DNA of 22,898 nt from a virus: positions 1 to 22,898 of the IMG/VR virus record IMGVR_UViG_3300021365_000126; one strand, given 5' to 3'. Below are positions 2,443 through 19,240 of the stretch, in pieces. Within the stretch, counting starts at the first letter, position 1, and each line of letters opens with the position of its first letter. A program made the translations under genes and the position numbers. The notes under the pieces are model-generated. The model did no database searches. It was not told the origin of the DNA and saw only the letters and a list, made by a program, of their open reading frames with translations.

Positions 2443-2480
2443 AAATAGTTCTTGACAAATATCTCTTTTTTAAGTATAAT
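2443..2480 (+). promoter_or_regulatory. promoter P1 (sigma70 consensus, AAATARTTC family)
   Basis: TTGACA (2452-2457), a 17-base spacer and TATAAT (2475-2480) match the sigma70 consensus at all twelve positions. The block AAATAGTTC stands directly before the -35 and recurs at five other promoters in the window. The ATG of the next gene is at 2487, where transcription itself should begin, so the mRNA is expected to be leaderless. Confidence 0.92.
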
Positions 2481-2486
2481 ACTCCC

Positions 2487-3074
2487 ATGAATATATTTGT
2501 ACTAGATGAAAATATCGATTTGTGTGCTCAATACCATATTGATGCGCACTCAGGTAAAATGCAGTTAGAGGCTGCACAAATGCTATGTACAAATCATTGG
2601 GTGGATAAGTATCTAGGTTATGTACCTAGAAAACTAACTTCGGAAGAGTGGGGTATACTTAAAGAAGCCAAGAAAAATACAGACAGGGACTTTCCCTATC
2701 TGCCTACTATGTACAACCACCCTTGTACTATCTGGGCTCGTGAGTCACAACAAAACTATGAATGGCTATTCTGCTATTCACACGCTCTCAACCAAGAACA
2801 TATATACAGAGGTGGAGCAAATCACAAATCTTTTTCAGAAGTTATCAGTAAACTGCCAGACATGGATCACTTACCTAGCACAGGGCTTACTCCCTTTGCG
2901 CAAGCTATGCCAGAAGAACTAAAAAGCAATAATGCAGTAGAGTCTTATCGTATGTTTTATATGAAAGATAAAGCAGCTATTGGTAAAGGTGCTAACTGGA
3001 AAGTTCGCGGTAAACCTTACTGGTGGAGCGAAGAGATAGCAGATTATGATAATAGAATATCAGGACAGAAATGA
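2487..3074 (+). CDS. conserved phage protein, NHPCTIWARES / GLTPFAQAMP family
   Basis: A 195-residue protein that I recall, without being able to search, as part of a family common in phages and lacking an agreed function. Landmarks are the N-terminal 'NIFVLDENIDLCAQYHIDAH' region followed by LEAAQMLC, the central NHPCTIWARES (about 77-87) with a following Tyr-Glu-Trp-Leu, and GLTPFAQAMP (about 133-142). Conserved His, Cys, Arg and Glu residues in these motifs suggest an enzyme or nucleic-acid-binding protein. I do not assign a reaction. The start is supported by the N-terminal motif beginning at once after the ATG. That ATG is only six bases after the -10 box of P1 and has no ribosome binding site. 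Confidence 0.8.
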   Translation: MNIFVLDENIDLCAQYHIDAHSGKMQLEAAQMLCTNHWVDKYLGYVPRKLTSEEWGILKEAKKNTDRDFPYLPTMYNHPCTIWARESQQNYEWLFCYSHALNQEHIYRGGANHKSFSEVISKLPDMDHLPSTGLTPFAQAMPEELKSNNAVESYRMFYMKDKAAIGKGANWKVRGKPYWWSEEIADYDNRISGQK

Positions 3075-7444: not shown

Positions 7445-8365
7445 GTGAAAGAATTTCTTGCACAATGTAATGAGTGTTACTATACAGGCAATCCGATTAT
7501 TTCGGACGCTGAATTTGATATTCTATCGTTAAAGTATGGAAATACTGACGTCGGTCATACGGTAACTGACGGCACTGCACACTGGTTTCAAATGTACTCC
7601 TTACAGAAAGTATTTGATTTGTCAGTATATTCTGACTTAGAAAAATACGTCCGTACTCCAAAGTTAGATGGAGCCGCTGTCTCGTTACTATACGTTGGTG
7701 GTGAGCTTGTTCTGGGACTTACAAGGGGTGACGGAAAGTTGGGCAGAGATATTACAGATAAGGTTAAGCACCTCGCTCCCAATACTTTGGATAGTAAGAA
7801 TATTATTCAAGTAACTGGAGAAGTTGTTTGTCCTTCAAATATCTCTAACGCAAGAAATCTTGCTTCCGGTTCCTTGAATCTCAAGGACGAAAGCGAGTTC
7901 CTAAGTAGGCCTCTGACATTTGTTGCTTACGGGTTACAGTCTGAACAAGATATGTTTTCTTACTTCACTGAAGGGTTAGCTTATCTTGAATCTCAAGGCT
8001 TTAATGTTGTAACAACTTTTAATGTGTCAGAGTACCCTACTGATGGAGAAGTCTTTAGGTTAGATAGTAATTATCTATTTAATAATGCGGGTTACACCTC
8101 ACATCATCCTAGAGGCGCTTTTGCTCTCAAACAACAGCAAAAAGGTATAGTCACTACATTATTGGATGTGACTTGGCAGGTAGGCAAATCAGGGGTTGTT
8201 AGTCCTGTAGCGATACTAAATCCAATTAAAATTGGAGACGCTGTTGTTTCGAGGGCCACCTTGCATAATATGGAATATATAAATGCTCTGGAATTAGAGA
8301 TAGGCTGTAATGTAGAGGTTATTCGTAGTGGCGAAATTATACCTCGTATTTTAAGGCGTGTATGA
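7445..8365 (+). CDS. NAD-dependent DNA ligase, N-terminal half (adenylation and OB domains)
   Basis: A 306-residue protein covering the first half of bacterial LigA, which seals nicks using NAD+. In order: a shortened Ia domain that binds the NMN half of NAD (YYTGNPIISDAEFD, 12-25); the nucleotidyltransferase domain with catalytic Lys73 in KLDG, GLTRGDGKLGRDIT (91-104), GEVVCP (125-130) and Arg/Asn-rich ARNLASGSLNLKD; and an OB fold from about 223 (TWQVGKSGVVSPVAILNP ... SRATLHN ... RSGEIIPRI). Motif IV reads DGEVFR (200-205), with Arg205 where the family normally has Lys. The protein stops where the OB domain ends. The zinc finger, HhH and BRCT domains are a separate gene downstream. T5-type phages are known for a ligase in two subunits. 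The start is GTG. Confidence 0.93.
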   Translation: MKEFLAQCNECYYTGNPIISDAEFDILSLKYGNTDVGHTVTDGTAHWFQMYSLQKVFDLSVYSDLEKYVRTPKLDGAAVSLLYVGGELVLGLTRGDGKLGRDITDKVKHLAPNTLDSKNIIQVTGEVVCPSNISNARNLASGSLNLKDESEFLSRPLTFVAYGLQSEQDMFSYFTEGLAYLESQGFNVVTTFNVSEYPTDGEVFRLDSNYLFNNAGYTSHHPRGAFALKQQQKGIVTTLLDVTWQVGKSGVVSPVAILNPIKIGDAVVSRATLHNMEYINALELEIGCNVEVIRSGEIIPRILRRV

Positions 8366-8448: not shown

Positions 8449-9204
8449 TTGCTGACCCAGATTACAAGACCACAACATTGCCCTAGCTGCAATAGTATTC
8501 TTGAATGGCTCAGCCCTTTACTCTATTGCCGTAATTCTGATTGTGCTTCACAATCGAGCAAGAAAGTAGAACACTTTGCTAAAACTTTAAAAATTAAAGG
8601 ATTAGGCCCGGCAGCAATCAAAAGATTAGATATTAGAGGAGTTGACGAAATCTACAGCTTCACGGAAGAAGAATTATGTGTAGGACTCGATTCCGATAAA
8701 CTAGGATCTAAATTATTTGCAGAGATAGAAAACTCAAAAAATGCACCATTGAATACAGTTTTAGCGGGGTTCAGTATCCCTCTAATTGGTAAGACCGCAA
8801 GTGAAAAACTAAGCTCAGTATGTGATACTATATATGAAATCAATGAGCAAAGCTGCACTGAGGCAGGACTTGGCCCAAAATCTACTGAGAGTCTAACAAC
8901 ATGGTTAGATGAGGTATTTTACCCAACGCTAGAGGGCTCTTTGCCTTTTAGCTTAAAGTTTAATAAATCACCGCAGAGCTCTCAGGCTGGAATTGTATGT
9001 ATAAGTGGAAAACTGAAGAGTTTTAAAACAAAAGCAGATGCTACAACTTGTTTAAAAGCCGCAGGCTTTGAAGTAAAGACTAGTGTTACAAAAGACGTAA
9101 CACATTTAGTTAATGAAAGTGGTATAGAAACTGCAAAAACCGAAAAAGCCAGACTATCTGGCATAACAATAATTGAAAACTTAAAAAGTTTTTTAGAGGA
9201 ATAA
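8449..9204 (+). CDS. NAD-dependent DNA ligase, C-terminal half (Zn finger, HhH, BRCT)
   Basis: A 251-residue protein equal to the second half of bacterial LigA. A four-cysteine zinc finger comes first (Cys11, Cys14, Cys27, Cys32, in CPSC...CRNSDC). Helix-hairpin-helix repeats follow (KTLKIKGLGPAAIKRL at about 46-61, and further copies near FSIPLIGKTASEKL and EAGLGPKSTESL), then a C-terminal BRCT domain (about 179-250, GIVCISGKLKSF ... VTKDVTHLV). These domains clamp the DNA and would complement the catalytic half in trans. TTG start with GAGAGAA six bases ahead. It has its own promoter, so this is an established second gene, not a frameshift artefact. The HTH-module gene follows after three bases. 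Confidence 0.93.
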   Translation: MLTQITRPQHCPSCNSILEWLSPLLYCRNSDCASQSSKKVEHFAKTLKIKGLGPAAIKRLDIRGVDEIYSFTEEELCVGLDSDKLGSKLFAEIENSKNAPLNTVLAGFSIPLIGKTASEKLSSVCDTIYEINEQSCTEAGLGPKSTESLTTWLDEVFYPTLEGSLPFSLKFNKSPQSSQAGIVCISGKLKSFKTKADATTCLKAAGFEVKTSVTKDVTHLVNESGIETAKTEKARLSGITIIENLKSFLEE

Positions 9205-16465: not shown

Positions 16466-16869
16466 TTGTTGGATTTACTGCTAGTACTTTTGATCTTCTT
16501 CATGCAGGACATTGTTCCATGCTTAGAGAGGCAAAGACTCAATGTGACTATTTGATCTGTGGCTTGCAAGTCGATCCTGGAGTAGATCGCTTAGAAAAAA
16601 ATAGACCAGTACAAACATTACCAGAAAGGTATATACAACTGTCAGCAGTAAAATATGTTGATGAGATTATACCATACGAAACAGAAATTGATTTAAAGGA
16701 TATTTTACAAACGCTTAATATTGATGTTCGTATTCTTGGCGATGAGTATCGTAACCTAGATTTTACTGGAAAGGGAGTATGTCAACAACGCGGAATTAAA
16801 CTATATTTTAACAAACGAGATCATAGGTTTTCTACTACTGATTTGAGAAGAAGGATACGTAACAGCTAG
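16462..16869 (+). CDS. cytidylyltransferase-like nucleotidyltransferase
   Basis: A 135-residue protein of the HxGH nucleotidyltransferase superfamily. GFTASTFDLLHAGH (4-17) has the nucleotide-binding HAGH, and HRFSTTDLRRRI (about 121-132) corresponds to the C-terminal 'RxxSTTxL' motif. Size and motifs fit glycerol-3-phosphate or ethanolamine-phosphate cytidylyltransferases, or the RfaE C-terminal domain, which make CDP- or ADP-activated headgroups or sugars. The phage substrate is unknown; options include modification of host envelope precursors or nucleotide salvage. It sits between the membrane peptide and the helicase with tight overlaps and a GTG start. Confidence 0.85.
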   Translation: MIVGFTASTFDLLHAGHCSMLREAKTQCDYLICGLQVDPGVDRLEKNRPVQTLPERYIQLSAVKYVDEIIPYETEIDLKDILQTLNIDVRILGDEYRNLDFTGKGVCQQRGIKLYFNKRDHRFSTTDLRRRIRNS

Positions 16870-18152
16870 TGAAAGCAGTACTCAGCGATAGAATTTATCT
16901 ACAAGTCAACTCGGATCAGAAGAAAGAGATAGGCGAGGCTCTTACGTATGTAATCCCCGCAAGGATCCCAACGGATCGTCCCCAAGTCATAAAAAATATG
17001 AACAGAATACGGGACGATCTTATTAGTATACCTATTGGTAGGTCAGACCTTATACCTGAAGGTTTTGAGATAGTAGATAAAAGACACAAAGAACCTGCGG
17101 ACTTCCCTGAATTTAGATTTCCTTTGAGAGATAGTCAAAAAGCAGTTTATGATGCATTAAATGATAACGCAATTATTAACGCCTGGGTAAGCTGGGGTAA
17201 AACTTTTACAGGATTAGCAATTGCAGGAAAACTTAAACAAAAAACGCTAGTCGTTACACATACAATTCCACTGAGAAATCAATGGGCAAAAGAAGTAGAG
17301 AAAGTATATGGCATACAACCAGGAATTATTGGCAGTGGTAAGTTTGATATTGATTCTCCTGTGGTCGTGGGGAACGTACAAACTCTTTACCGGAATTTGG
17401 AATCCGTATCAAAGCATTTCGGAACTATTATTTTGGATGAGATGCATCATGTCTCGTCTCCGACGTTTTCTAGGATTATAGATAAAAGCTATGCTCGATA
17501 TAAGATAGGGCTCTCTGGTACACTTGAAAGAAAGGACGGCAAGCATGTAGTTTTTCGGGATTATTTTAGTAACACAGTTTTTAAACCGCCTGCAGAAAAC
17601 TACATGATGCCTGAGATAGATATTTACAAAAGTCAAGTAAGATTTATGGACGGATCTAGAACACCTTGGGCGAATAGAGTCACAGCTCTCTGTAATAACG
17701 AGGAGTATAGACATTCAATCGCTTTAATGGCAGCTTCATACGCGGCTAGAGGGCATAAAGTTCTTGTAGTAAGCGATAGAGTACACTTCTTAAAAGCCTG
17801 CGCTGAATTAGTAGGGGATAAAGCAGTCTGTGTAACAGGAGACGTGGGACATGAAGATCGTGAAAATTTATTAGCTGATATAAGAAATAATAAAAAAGAA
17901 ATACTGTTTGGAACTCAAGCAATATTCTCTGAAGGTATTTCTGTTAATAATCTTAGTTGTCTCATACTAGGCACTCCCATAAATAATGAACCGCTCCTGA
18001 CTCAGCTCATAGGGCGCGTTATAAGGGAGGATAGTAATAAAAAGACCCCTAAAATTGTAGACACTCACCTATTAGGTAACACGGCCAAGCGGCAAGCCTC
18101 TAACAGGATGGGATACTACATTAAACAAGGTTGGAAAATTAACCAACTATAA
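16869..18152 (+). CDS. UvsW-like superfamily 2 DNA helicase
   Basis: A 427-residue SF2 helicase. In T4 the comparable UvsW unwinds branched DNA and R-loops and helps switch to recombination-dependent replication. Motifs: FPLRDSQ before motif I (84-90), motif I WVSWGKT (106-112), Ia VVTHTIPLRNQW, II DEMHH (190-194), III LSGTLERKDGKH (215-226), and VI QLIGRVIRED (379-388). Motif I lacks the first glycine of a standard Walker A. A GTG start overlaps the previous stop (TAGTG). It lies upstream of SSB and SbcCD genes, fitting a recombination role. Confidence 0.9.
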   Translation: MKAVLSDRIYLQVNSDQKKEIGEALTYVIPARIPTDRPQVIKNMNRIRDDLISIPIGRSDLIPEGFEIVDKRHKEPADFPEFRFPLRDSQKAVYDALNDNAIINAWVSWGKTFTGLAIAGKLKQKTLVVTHTIPLRNQWAKEVEKVYGIQPGIIGSGKFDIDSPVVVGNVQTLYRNLESVSKHFGTIILDEMHHVSSPTFSRIIDKSYARYKIGLSGTLERKDGKHVVFRDYFSNTVFKPPAENYMMPEIDIYKSQVRFMDGSRTPWANRVTALCNNEEYRHSIALMAASYAARGHKVLVVSDRVHFLKACAELVGDKAVCVTGDVGHEDRENLLADIRNNKKEILFGTQAIFSEGISVNNLSCLILGTPINNEPLLTQLIGRVIREDSNKKTPKIVDTHLLGNTAKRQASNRMGYYIKQGWKINQL

Positions 18153-18155
18153 TAA

Positions 18156-18193
18156 AAATAATTCTTGACATTACATTGAAATTTTAGTATAAT
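18156..18193 (+). promoter_or_regulatory. promoter P6 (sigma70 consensus, AAATARTTC family)
   Basis: AAATAATTC, TTGACA (18165-18170), 17-base spacer, TATAAT (18188-18193); all core positions match. It stands upstream of a conserved gene, SSB and sbcDC. The first start codon of the next gene (18195) lies before the expected transcription start near 18200, which is a conflict. Confidence 0.9.
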
Positions 18194-18194
18194 T

Positions 18195-18602
18195 ATGATT
18201 CTCTACAACTGGCCCAAAATCTTTACTCTTAGTAAGGGAAGCGCAAAACAGATGTATCTTATTATTAAGATGATTACTAATAATGAGATACCACAAAATA
18301 AGCGTGATCCCTTATACAGGTATATGGACGTAGATTTTTCTGGAATTAGCTTTTTAGTTCATCCAGAGGTCTTAGTCTATAATAGTTATGCGTACAGTTA
18401 TAGAGACATAGGAGTATATCTAGCCCTAGCTTCTGCAAGAAATCTTATGGATTTTAAATTAACGGGTGACACACGTTTAGCTCTGGAACACTGCCCTGTG
18501 GAAGGAGTAACCGATTACTTAATAGAAAATAGACTACTTTATATAAAAGATGATTATATTCATTTTATCTATGAGGAAGTTACAAAGGAGAATACACACT
18601 AA
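18195..18602 (+). CDS. conserved phage protein, start uncertain (135 aa or shorter)
   Basis: A 135-residue reading from ATG 18195, containing LYNWPKIFTLSKGS, LVHPEVLVYNSYAYSYRDIG, YLALASARN and a C-terminal YLIENRLLYIKDDYIHFIYE. I have a weak memory of relatives beginning with the 'YNWPKIF' segment. If so, this start is right, but it lies one base after the -10 box and upstream of the expected transcription start, with no ribosome binding site. The alternative ATG at 18252 follows AAGGGAA (18234-18240) at 11 bases and gives 116 residues. The stop overlaps the SSB start (TAATG). Function unknown. Confidence 0.65.
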   Translation: MILYNWPKIFTLSKGSAKQMYLIIKMITNNEIPQNKRDPLYRYMDVDFSGISFLVHPEVLVYNSYAYSYRDIGVYLALASARNLMDFKLTGDTRLALEHCPVEGVTDYLIENRLLYIKDDYIHFIYEEVTKENTH

Positions 18603-19240
18603 TGGCTATTGGATTTAACAAAACTAAAGGCGCTGCCAAAAAAGGAAATATTGTATCGTATGCTTATCGCGACGGTGATAACGACGTTCGTCTCGTAGGA
18701 GATGTTCTTGCTCGATACGTTTATTGGATTCCTGGAGAAAACAATAAGGATATTCCTTTTGAGTGCCTGTCTTTTGATAGAAACGAAGAGAAGTTTAACA
18801 ATTTGGAAAAGGACTGGGTACGAGAATATCATCCAGACCTTAAGTGCACTTGGAGCTACGCTATGCAGTGCTTAGATAAGGGTGAATTAAAAGTCATCAA
18901 TCTAAAGAAAAAGCTTTTTGAGCAAATTCTTACTGCTGCGGAAGATTTAGGCGATCCCACAGATCCACAAGACGGCTGGGATATTAAATTTAAGAGAGCA
19001 AAGACTGGCCCTCTTCCTTACAATGTTGAATATCAACTCCAAGTTTTGAAGTGCAAGCCCAGAAGTTTATCTGAAGCAGAAATGACTGCTATTGAATCTC
19101 TGAAGTCTATGGATGATGTTATGCCTCGTCCTACTACAGATGCTCAAAAAGAGCTTTTAGATCGTTTACGGTCTGGCGGATCAGATAAGACCTCTGATGA
19201 TATTGATGAAACTATTGAAAAAGAATTTAACATCGCATGA
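18602..19240 (+). CDS. single-stranded DNA-binding protein (gp32-like)
   Basis: A 212-residue protein with features of T4 gp32-type SSBs: a basic N-terminal segment (FNKTKGAAKKG), a core containing GWDIKFKRAKTGPLPYNVEY (about 124-143), and a Ser/Asp/Glu-rich acidic C-terminal tail (SGGSDKTSDDIDETIEKEF) like the protein-docking tails of SSBs. I do not see an obvious zinc ribbon as in gp32. Codon use leans towards CGN arginine more than most neighbours, fitting abundant expression. AAAGGAG lies about 11 bases before the ATG. Position between the UvsW-like helicase and SbcD supports the call. Core similarity is from memory. Confidence 0.75.
   Translation: MAIGFNKTKGAAKKGNIVSYAYRDGDNDVRLVGDVLARYVYWIPGENNKDIPFECLSFDRNEEKFNNLEKDWVREYHPDLKCTWSYAMQCLDKGELKVINLKKKLFEQILTAAEDLGDPTDPQDGWDIKFKRAKTGPLPYNVEYQLQVLKCKPRSLSEAEMTAIESLKSMDDVMPRPTTDAQKELLDRLRSGGSDKTSDDIDETIEKEFNIA

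Follow-up and report, generated by a model that had tools for sequence, protein, structure and literature searches.

In a large group of uncultured T5-related viruses, most of them from the ocean, a consensus promoter abuts the start codon of a small gene. We found the arrangement in a T5-like phage fragment from IMG/VR (record IMGVR_UViG_3300021365_000126), all 22,898 nt of which were analysed (the window). It is not due to chance, since every one of the 127 distinct relatives among the matches listed has it. The promoter, P6, stands at the head of a gene that, judged by profile match, is a homologue of the T5 gene T5.125, and directly behind that gene lies one for a single-strand DNA binding protein (SSB). 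The reading that we consider probable is that P6 makes a messenger for SSB and the genes downstream that would lack the AUG of the T5.125-like gene, and that the small protein would be made from read-through RNA.

Geometry of the promoter and the start codon

P6 occupies positions 18165–18193 on the plus strand. It consists of a −35 element, TTGACA (18165–18170), a 17-nt spacer and a −10 element, TATAAT (18188–18193), and matches the consensus at 12 of 12 positions. The ATG of the T5.125-like open reading frame (ORF) at 18195–18197 stands 1 nt past the −10, its A being 2 nt past it, and is followed by ATT (18198–18200) as codon 2; the closest in-frame stop on the 5' side is TGA at 18177–18179. 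An A-rich stretch, TAAAAATAATTC (18153–18164, plus strand), precedes the −35 and is kept over 183 sequences, with the clade consensus AAAAATAgtTC; a comparable A-rich stretch also precedes the other promoters of the window. Exact TTGACA-N17-TATAAT sequences occur five times in the window, P6 included, and never in 100 dinucleotide shuffles, which rules out P6 as a chance match. Together with one site matching at 11 of 12 positions, they make up six promoters in the window, all on the plus strand.

Sigma70 RNA polymerase prefers to start 7 bp past the −10, with positions 6–9 all cheap to use (from the accessible portion of PMC5730371). By this rule, P6 RNA would be expected to begin at about 18199–18202 on the plus strand, within codons 2–3, and to lack ATG 18195. 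The first-pass annotation had pointed out that the −10 ends at 18193, with the first ATG at 18195, and that a transcript starting near 18200 would lack this ATG. The sequence confirms this geometry, with the ATG on the 5' side of every normal sigma70 start site. By the same rule, in general, a gap of 4 nt or less between the −10 and the ATG leaves out the A of the ATG, and a gap of 6–7 nt would give a leaderless mRNA. The start-codon A of the T5.125-like ORF is not at the position about 7 nt past the −10 that characterizes a leaderless gene.

Other promoters of the same phages served as a control. Of 60 distinct promoter contexts not associated with a T5.125-like gene, 41 yielded a first ATG and 19 did not; some of the 41 may be chance promoters. 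Gaps to the first ATG were 23–33 nt in 23 of the 41, 6–7 nt in eight and elsewhere in nine. A gap of 4 nt or less occurred once, at a TTGAGA-type sequence (L116, gap 2) with a second ATG further down. The sorting behind this comparison admitted only gaps of up to about 6 nt to the class of T5.125-like genes, whose 131 members are close-set by construction. Within the window, four of the six strong promoters are followed by a leader that carries a Shine–Dalgarno-like sequence, and their start codons lie 24–27 nt past the −10. The promoter at 2452–2480 (plus strand) has leaderless spacing, with an ATG at 2487 after 6 nt, and the three relatives of this ORF (2452–3074 region) keep gaps of 6, 6 and 7 nt. 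Leaderless genes such as ORF 2487 share the sigma70 promoter type of P6 and likewise lack a Shine–Dalgarno sequence, but their gaps of 6–7 nt place the start site at or beside the A of the ATG, whereas the gap of 1 nt at P6 places it after the ATG. Both leadered and leaderless layouts thus occur in these phages; the T5.125-like gene follows neither pattern.

Two side observations concern these control genes. The product of ORF 2487 shows a weak similarity to pyrimidine dimer glycosylase (Pfam E = 0.002, below the cut-off). Two consecutive ORFs at 7445–8365 and 8449–9204 each have their own strong promoter and leader; they look like an NAD-dependent DNA ligase in two pieces, the arrangement of T5.

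Identity and true start of the T5.125-like protein

The ORF following P6 (18195–18602, plus strand) encodes 135 residues and lacks a Shine–Dalgarno sequence. It matches phrog_4258 over its full length (E = 5.5e-18), residues 1–129 aligning with profile positions 1–118 of 120. The surrounding genes follow the order of T5: DNA polymerase, D10-type helicase, the ORF, SSB, and SbcD and SbcC types. The order D10-type helicase, T5.125 family, SSB/D11 and then D12/D13 is shared by T5, Slocum, Eos, My1, PM135 and other phages. The UvsW/D10-type helicase gene (16869–18152, plus strand) ends with a stop codon at 18150–18152, leaving 42 nt before ATG 18195, about the length of a promoter.

Several lines of evidence bear on where this protein begins. 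In tblastn comparisons with named phages, 15 of 15 matches begin at query residue 1. Across 154 distinct proteins (these, like the 183 distinct ORFs used below, include sequences from a pattern-selected set), residues 1–10 have a mean pairwise identity of 0.69, the highest of 14 blocks, and different codons are used in 41% of the pairs that share an amino acid there. Single-base differences between close pairs in codons 2–19 were synonymous in 2,884 cases and not in 1,756, compared with 11,312 and 2,553 in codons 20–60 and 14,102 and 5,262 in codons 61–135. Residues 11–19 are more variable than the rest, yet by these substitution counts codons 2–19 are still under coding constraint. The same-codon fraction by block gave no clear signal of DNA-level constraint past the ATG: it was 0.59 in residues 1–10, 0.41–0.56 in the blocks from 11 to 100, 0.67 in 101–110 and 0.85 in 131–140. 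The AlphaFold model has a mean pLDDT of 91.5, and in it residues 1–10 (pLDDT 97) contribute to a strand (2–4) and a helix (6–12). N-terminal conservation, the starts of the homologues and the model together indicate that the true start is ATG 18195 or something upstream.

The earlier suggestion to align homologues over residues 1–19 was therefore informative: the segment is conserved, and homologues begin at codon 1, not at the internal Met. That ATG 18195 is misannotated and the true protein starts at Met20 is hardly credible. The position of the promoter, taken alone, would suggest it, as would the internal start annotated in many T5 records, but it is refuted on homology, both by the tblastn matches and by the fact that the best-conserved block, with its synonymous change, is the one it would discard, and the modelled fold appears to need the N-terminus.

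A related proposal is that two proteins are made from the gene, 135 residues from read-through RNA and 116 residues from P6 RNA, starting at Met20. The window offers a candidate start for the short form, AAGGGAA (18234–18240) followed by an in-frame ATG (18252–18254, plus strand), with a Shine–Dalgarno energy of −5.3, and Met20 is kept in the nearest relative (L004, 79% identical). Across the family, Met20 is present in 23 of the 154 distinct proteins, in 53 of the 183 distinct ORFs codons 4–40 contain not a single in-frame ATG, and internal starts with a Shine–Dalgarno sequence (66 of 154) fall at scattered codons, so that no conserved internal start with a ribosome site was found. The short form would also lose strand 2–4 and helix 6–12, modelled at high confidence. 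We consider two forms improbable, and the idea of a P6-made short form with a shared function did not hold up. A minor Met20 form in the window genome alone is possible, given the moderate Shine–Dalgarno-like sequence (−5.3 kcal/mol). A leaderless start at ATT 18198, raised in the first-pass annotation, is unsupported; the second residue varies freely between I and L.

Database searches gave few leads to the function of the small protein. The best Pfam match was SocA_Panacea at E = 0.079, below the cut-off, NCBIfam gave none, and a PDB sequence search returned one match (E 0.22). No PDB fold matched at E ≤ 0.001, the best Foldseek value being 3.9; a viral fold library gave two matches below 0.001, the PM135 homologue and one unnamed protein. 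The model also contains helices at 69–80 and 84–90 and a C-terminal strand pair. The C-terminal half looks like a winged helix only by eye and in very weak matches (Foldseek E 3.9, VIA-align Z 2.4); the three VIA-align rows (Z 2.1–2.4), which include winged-helix-type proteins, are too weak to use.

The gene probably served by P6 RNA

The SSB gene (18602–19240, plus strand; phrog_1607 single-strand DNA binding protein, E = 3.7e-32) occupies the position of T5 D11. Its ATG overlaps the TAA stop of the T5.125-like ORF, and it has a Shine–Dalgarno sequence, AAAGGAG (18584–18590, plus strand), with an energy of −8.7. Pairing energies with the 16S tail had a median of −0.4 at the start of the T5.125-like ORF (183 ORFs; +0.4 in the window) and of −6.6 at the SSB start, where the value was −4 or lower in 179 of the 179 relatives with SSB found. 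In 174 of 175 relatives, the 268 nt upstream contain no second promoter that matches at 10 or more of 12 positions (best 9/12 or less); a second promoter just 5' of P6 in the marine clade was considered, and none was found. Because the ORF lacks a Shine–Dalgarno sequence, SSB has a good one and no other promoter is at hand, SSB would be the first clear product of P6 RNA. Without the AUG on that RNA, the T5.125-like ORF would have to be read from RNA entering from upstream.

We propose the following mechanism. P6 would act as a strong host-type sigma70 promoter whose RNA begins inside codons 2–3 of the T5.125-like ORF and carries no AUG for it. The first well-marked translation start on this RNA would be that of SSB, some 400 nt further on, with the SbcD/SbcC-type genes (D12/D13) behind it. 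The 135-residue protein would come only from upstream-entering RNA, that of the replication operon running through the helicase gene, and from a start without a Shine–Dalgarno sequence. In this way, P6 would uncouple the expression of SSB, which would be high, from that of the small gene beside it, which would be low. That the long form arises only from read-through RNA was one of several options in the first-pass annotation, and it is the best supported of them.

Internal (intragenic) promoters can drive a downstream gene of an operon. P6 resembles the known examples in that its RNA would begin in one gene and serve the next, and SSB has the ribosome site of its own that such a downstream gene needs. 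P6 differs from them in that the start is predicted within the first codons and in that a deep clade has preserved its contact with the start codon. Three considerations speak against the proposed mechanism: Rho or RNases could attack the RNA along the roughly 400 nt of untranslated leader before SSB, the overlap of the SSB start with the ORF end would also suit translational coupling, and the leader and ribosome site in the ancestral-type phages (see below) indicate that the promoter once served the ORF itself.

Conservation and meaning of the contact

To survey the family, we used four protein-profile searches in which the promoter played no part. The best 80 of 419–571 relatives from each, with at least 50 nt upstream required, yielded 127 distinct start regions. 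Of the two peptide patterns that each profile search used, one begins with the N-terminal Met, which favours ATG as codon 1 but not any particular gap. Among these listed matches, the gap from the −10 to codon 1 was −2 in three regions, 0 in 84, 1 in five, 2 in 32 and 3 in three, and no gap of 5 nt or more occurred. At gap −2, the −10 hexamer overlaps the ATG (TATAATG). The −35 at spacer 17 matched at six of six positions in 113 of the listed regions and at five of six in 13, and one region has an 18-nt spacer.

Codon 1 is ATG in 123 of the 127 listed regions and ATA in four, all of one subclade (L417, L421, L427 and L437). The ATA loci have an in-frame ATG 24 nt upstream, between the −35 and the −10, which gives a possible 8-residue N-terminal extension (MSSKFCYN-). 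If this spacer ATG serves as the start, the P6 transcript cannot carry it. Loci with less than 50 nt upstream (for example L168, L175, L418 and L436) were excluded from the 127, as were L521 and L526, where the match begins at residue 15 or 18; the sequences at excluded loci include TATAATATA (L418), TATAATatATG (L168) and TATAATATG (L436). A separate pattern search for TATAAT within 8 nt of an ATG gave at least 120 loci, 118 of 120 being relatives among the matches listed, with gaps of 0–4 and never 5–8; this set demands TATAAT within 8 nt by design and was kept out of the frequency claim. In L385 and L386, a second TATAAT lies within codons 4–5 (tat aat), a frequent spelling of a conserved Tyr-Asn, and may be a decoy −10.

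The gaps bear on whether P6 RNA might carry the AUG after all, which would require a phage-modified RNA polymerase to start 1–3 nt past the −10 and would make this an extreme leaderless gene. Leaderless-type spacing does exist elsewhere in the phage, at ORF 2487 and its three relatives, and T5 modifies the host polymerase through gpT5.026 (in the accessible part of PMC7472727). However, those leaderless genes, in the same genomes, use 6–7 nt, and among the matches listed the −10 meets the ATG with no gap in most regions and overlaps it in some. Start sites so near the −10 also lie outside the known range, as far as the accessible portion of PMC5730371 goes. We regard this explanation as very unlikely.

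Cultured relatives show how the layout varies. Touching was seen in three of 13 reference regions: Slocum (gap 2), Eos (gap 1) and IME260 (gap 4), so that the layout is present in culturable Klebsiella (IME260) and Serratia (Slocum) phages. Eight of the 13 have a leader of about 19–29 nt (T5, Salmonella 1-19, 26175III, My1, PM135, Brizo, VF16 and D232), PG07 has a gap of 11, and Akh-2 has no TATAAT at that place. Tandem promoters lie about 100 nt upstream in Slocum, Eos, IME260, T5 and PM135. On a tree of the ORF and SSB (68 rows; a quick method, with some long branches), at least three changes are required to account for the touching state, which occurs in the marine clade (50 of 50 representatives), in Slocum, and in Eos together with IME260.

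T5 itself has T5.125 (T5p123), of the same family, in the same position between the D10 helicase and D11/SSB and with a sigma70-type promoter just upstream. There the −10 is 29 nt before a start codon ATT with a GAGGAG ribosome site, whereas in the window the leader is gone. The T5 copy seems to start at this ATT (L136, AY692264, about 2995–2997; about 67606 in the record): the 40-base start stretch is the same in 183 of the 209 phage records that match, and where T5 has ATT, a close relative from Salmonella has ATG. The T5 record places the start internally, at 67684, about 25 residues after the ATT. Family proteins are often annotated too short at the N-terminus, as in PM135 (L014, 92 residues) and Vibrio phage pVp-1 (BFVD H6WXA1, 67 residues), where the short annotations are apparently internal starts. 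In the ancestral-type phages T5, My1, PM135 and Brizo, the promoter comes with a leader and ribosome site for the ORF, which indicates that it once served the ORF. The discriminator of T5 early promoters reportedly contains ATATT (accessible part of PMC7472727); here the ATG fills this place (ATATG or ATGTT), and the contact may have arisen so.

Why the contact is so tight can be read in two ways, both with P6 serving SSB. In the first, to which we give slightly less than even weight, it has no regulatory meaning: once the ORF was independent of P6, its leader and ribosome site had no further use and were lost by deletion until the promoter met the gene. The helicase gene presses from the other side as well, with 39–48 nt between its stop and the ATG in 156 of the 183 distinct ORFs and 14–25 nt, so that the stop lies inside the promoter, in eight. 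The gap also varies (−2, 0, 1, 2, 3 and 4), as if the upper limit alone mattered. Drift alone, however, should sometimes cross that limit, and gaps of 5 nt or more are absent from the 127 regions (among matches listed) and from the pattern-selected set, while other promoters of the clade stand at 6–7 nt and the touching state took several changes on the tree.

In the second reading, which we put forward tentatively as the less likely, exclusion of the AUG is a selected switch. As long as read-through RNA is the only kind present, the small protein would be made; when P6 becomes active, its RNA would give SSB but no small protein, and polymerase on P6 would block read-through; sitting there, it is proposed to melt the ATG itself. 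The small protein, possibly a winged helix, could act on P6 or other early promoters and close a loop, and T5 would reach a similarly low output by another route, its ATT start codon. Selection is favoured by gaps that stop sharply at 4, short of the 6–7 nt that would restore the AUG, across a deep clade and at least three lineages.

A literature search returned no paper on T5.125 or its start codon and, among openly available papers on T5 promoters, no start-codon-touching promoter as a conserved phage feature. For annotation, these findings warn that pairing a promoter with the next ATG can be wrong, and they would move the start of T5.125 in T5 to the ATT codon, the present annotation being about 25 residues too late. 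If the 5' ends are as predicted, P6 would be a widespread promoter that touches a start codon and is kept to leave the gene out, not to express it. These phages would then set the output of an abundant replication protein apart from that of its small neighbour, with neither a terminator nor a second regulator involved.
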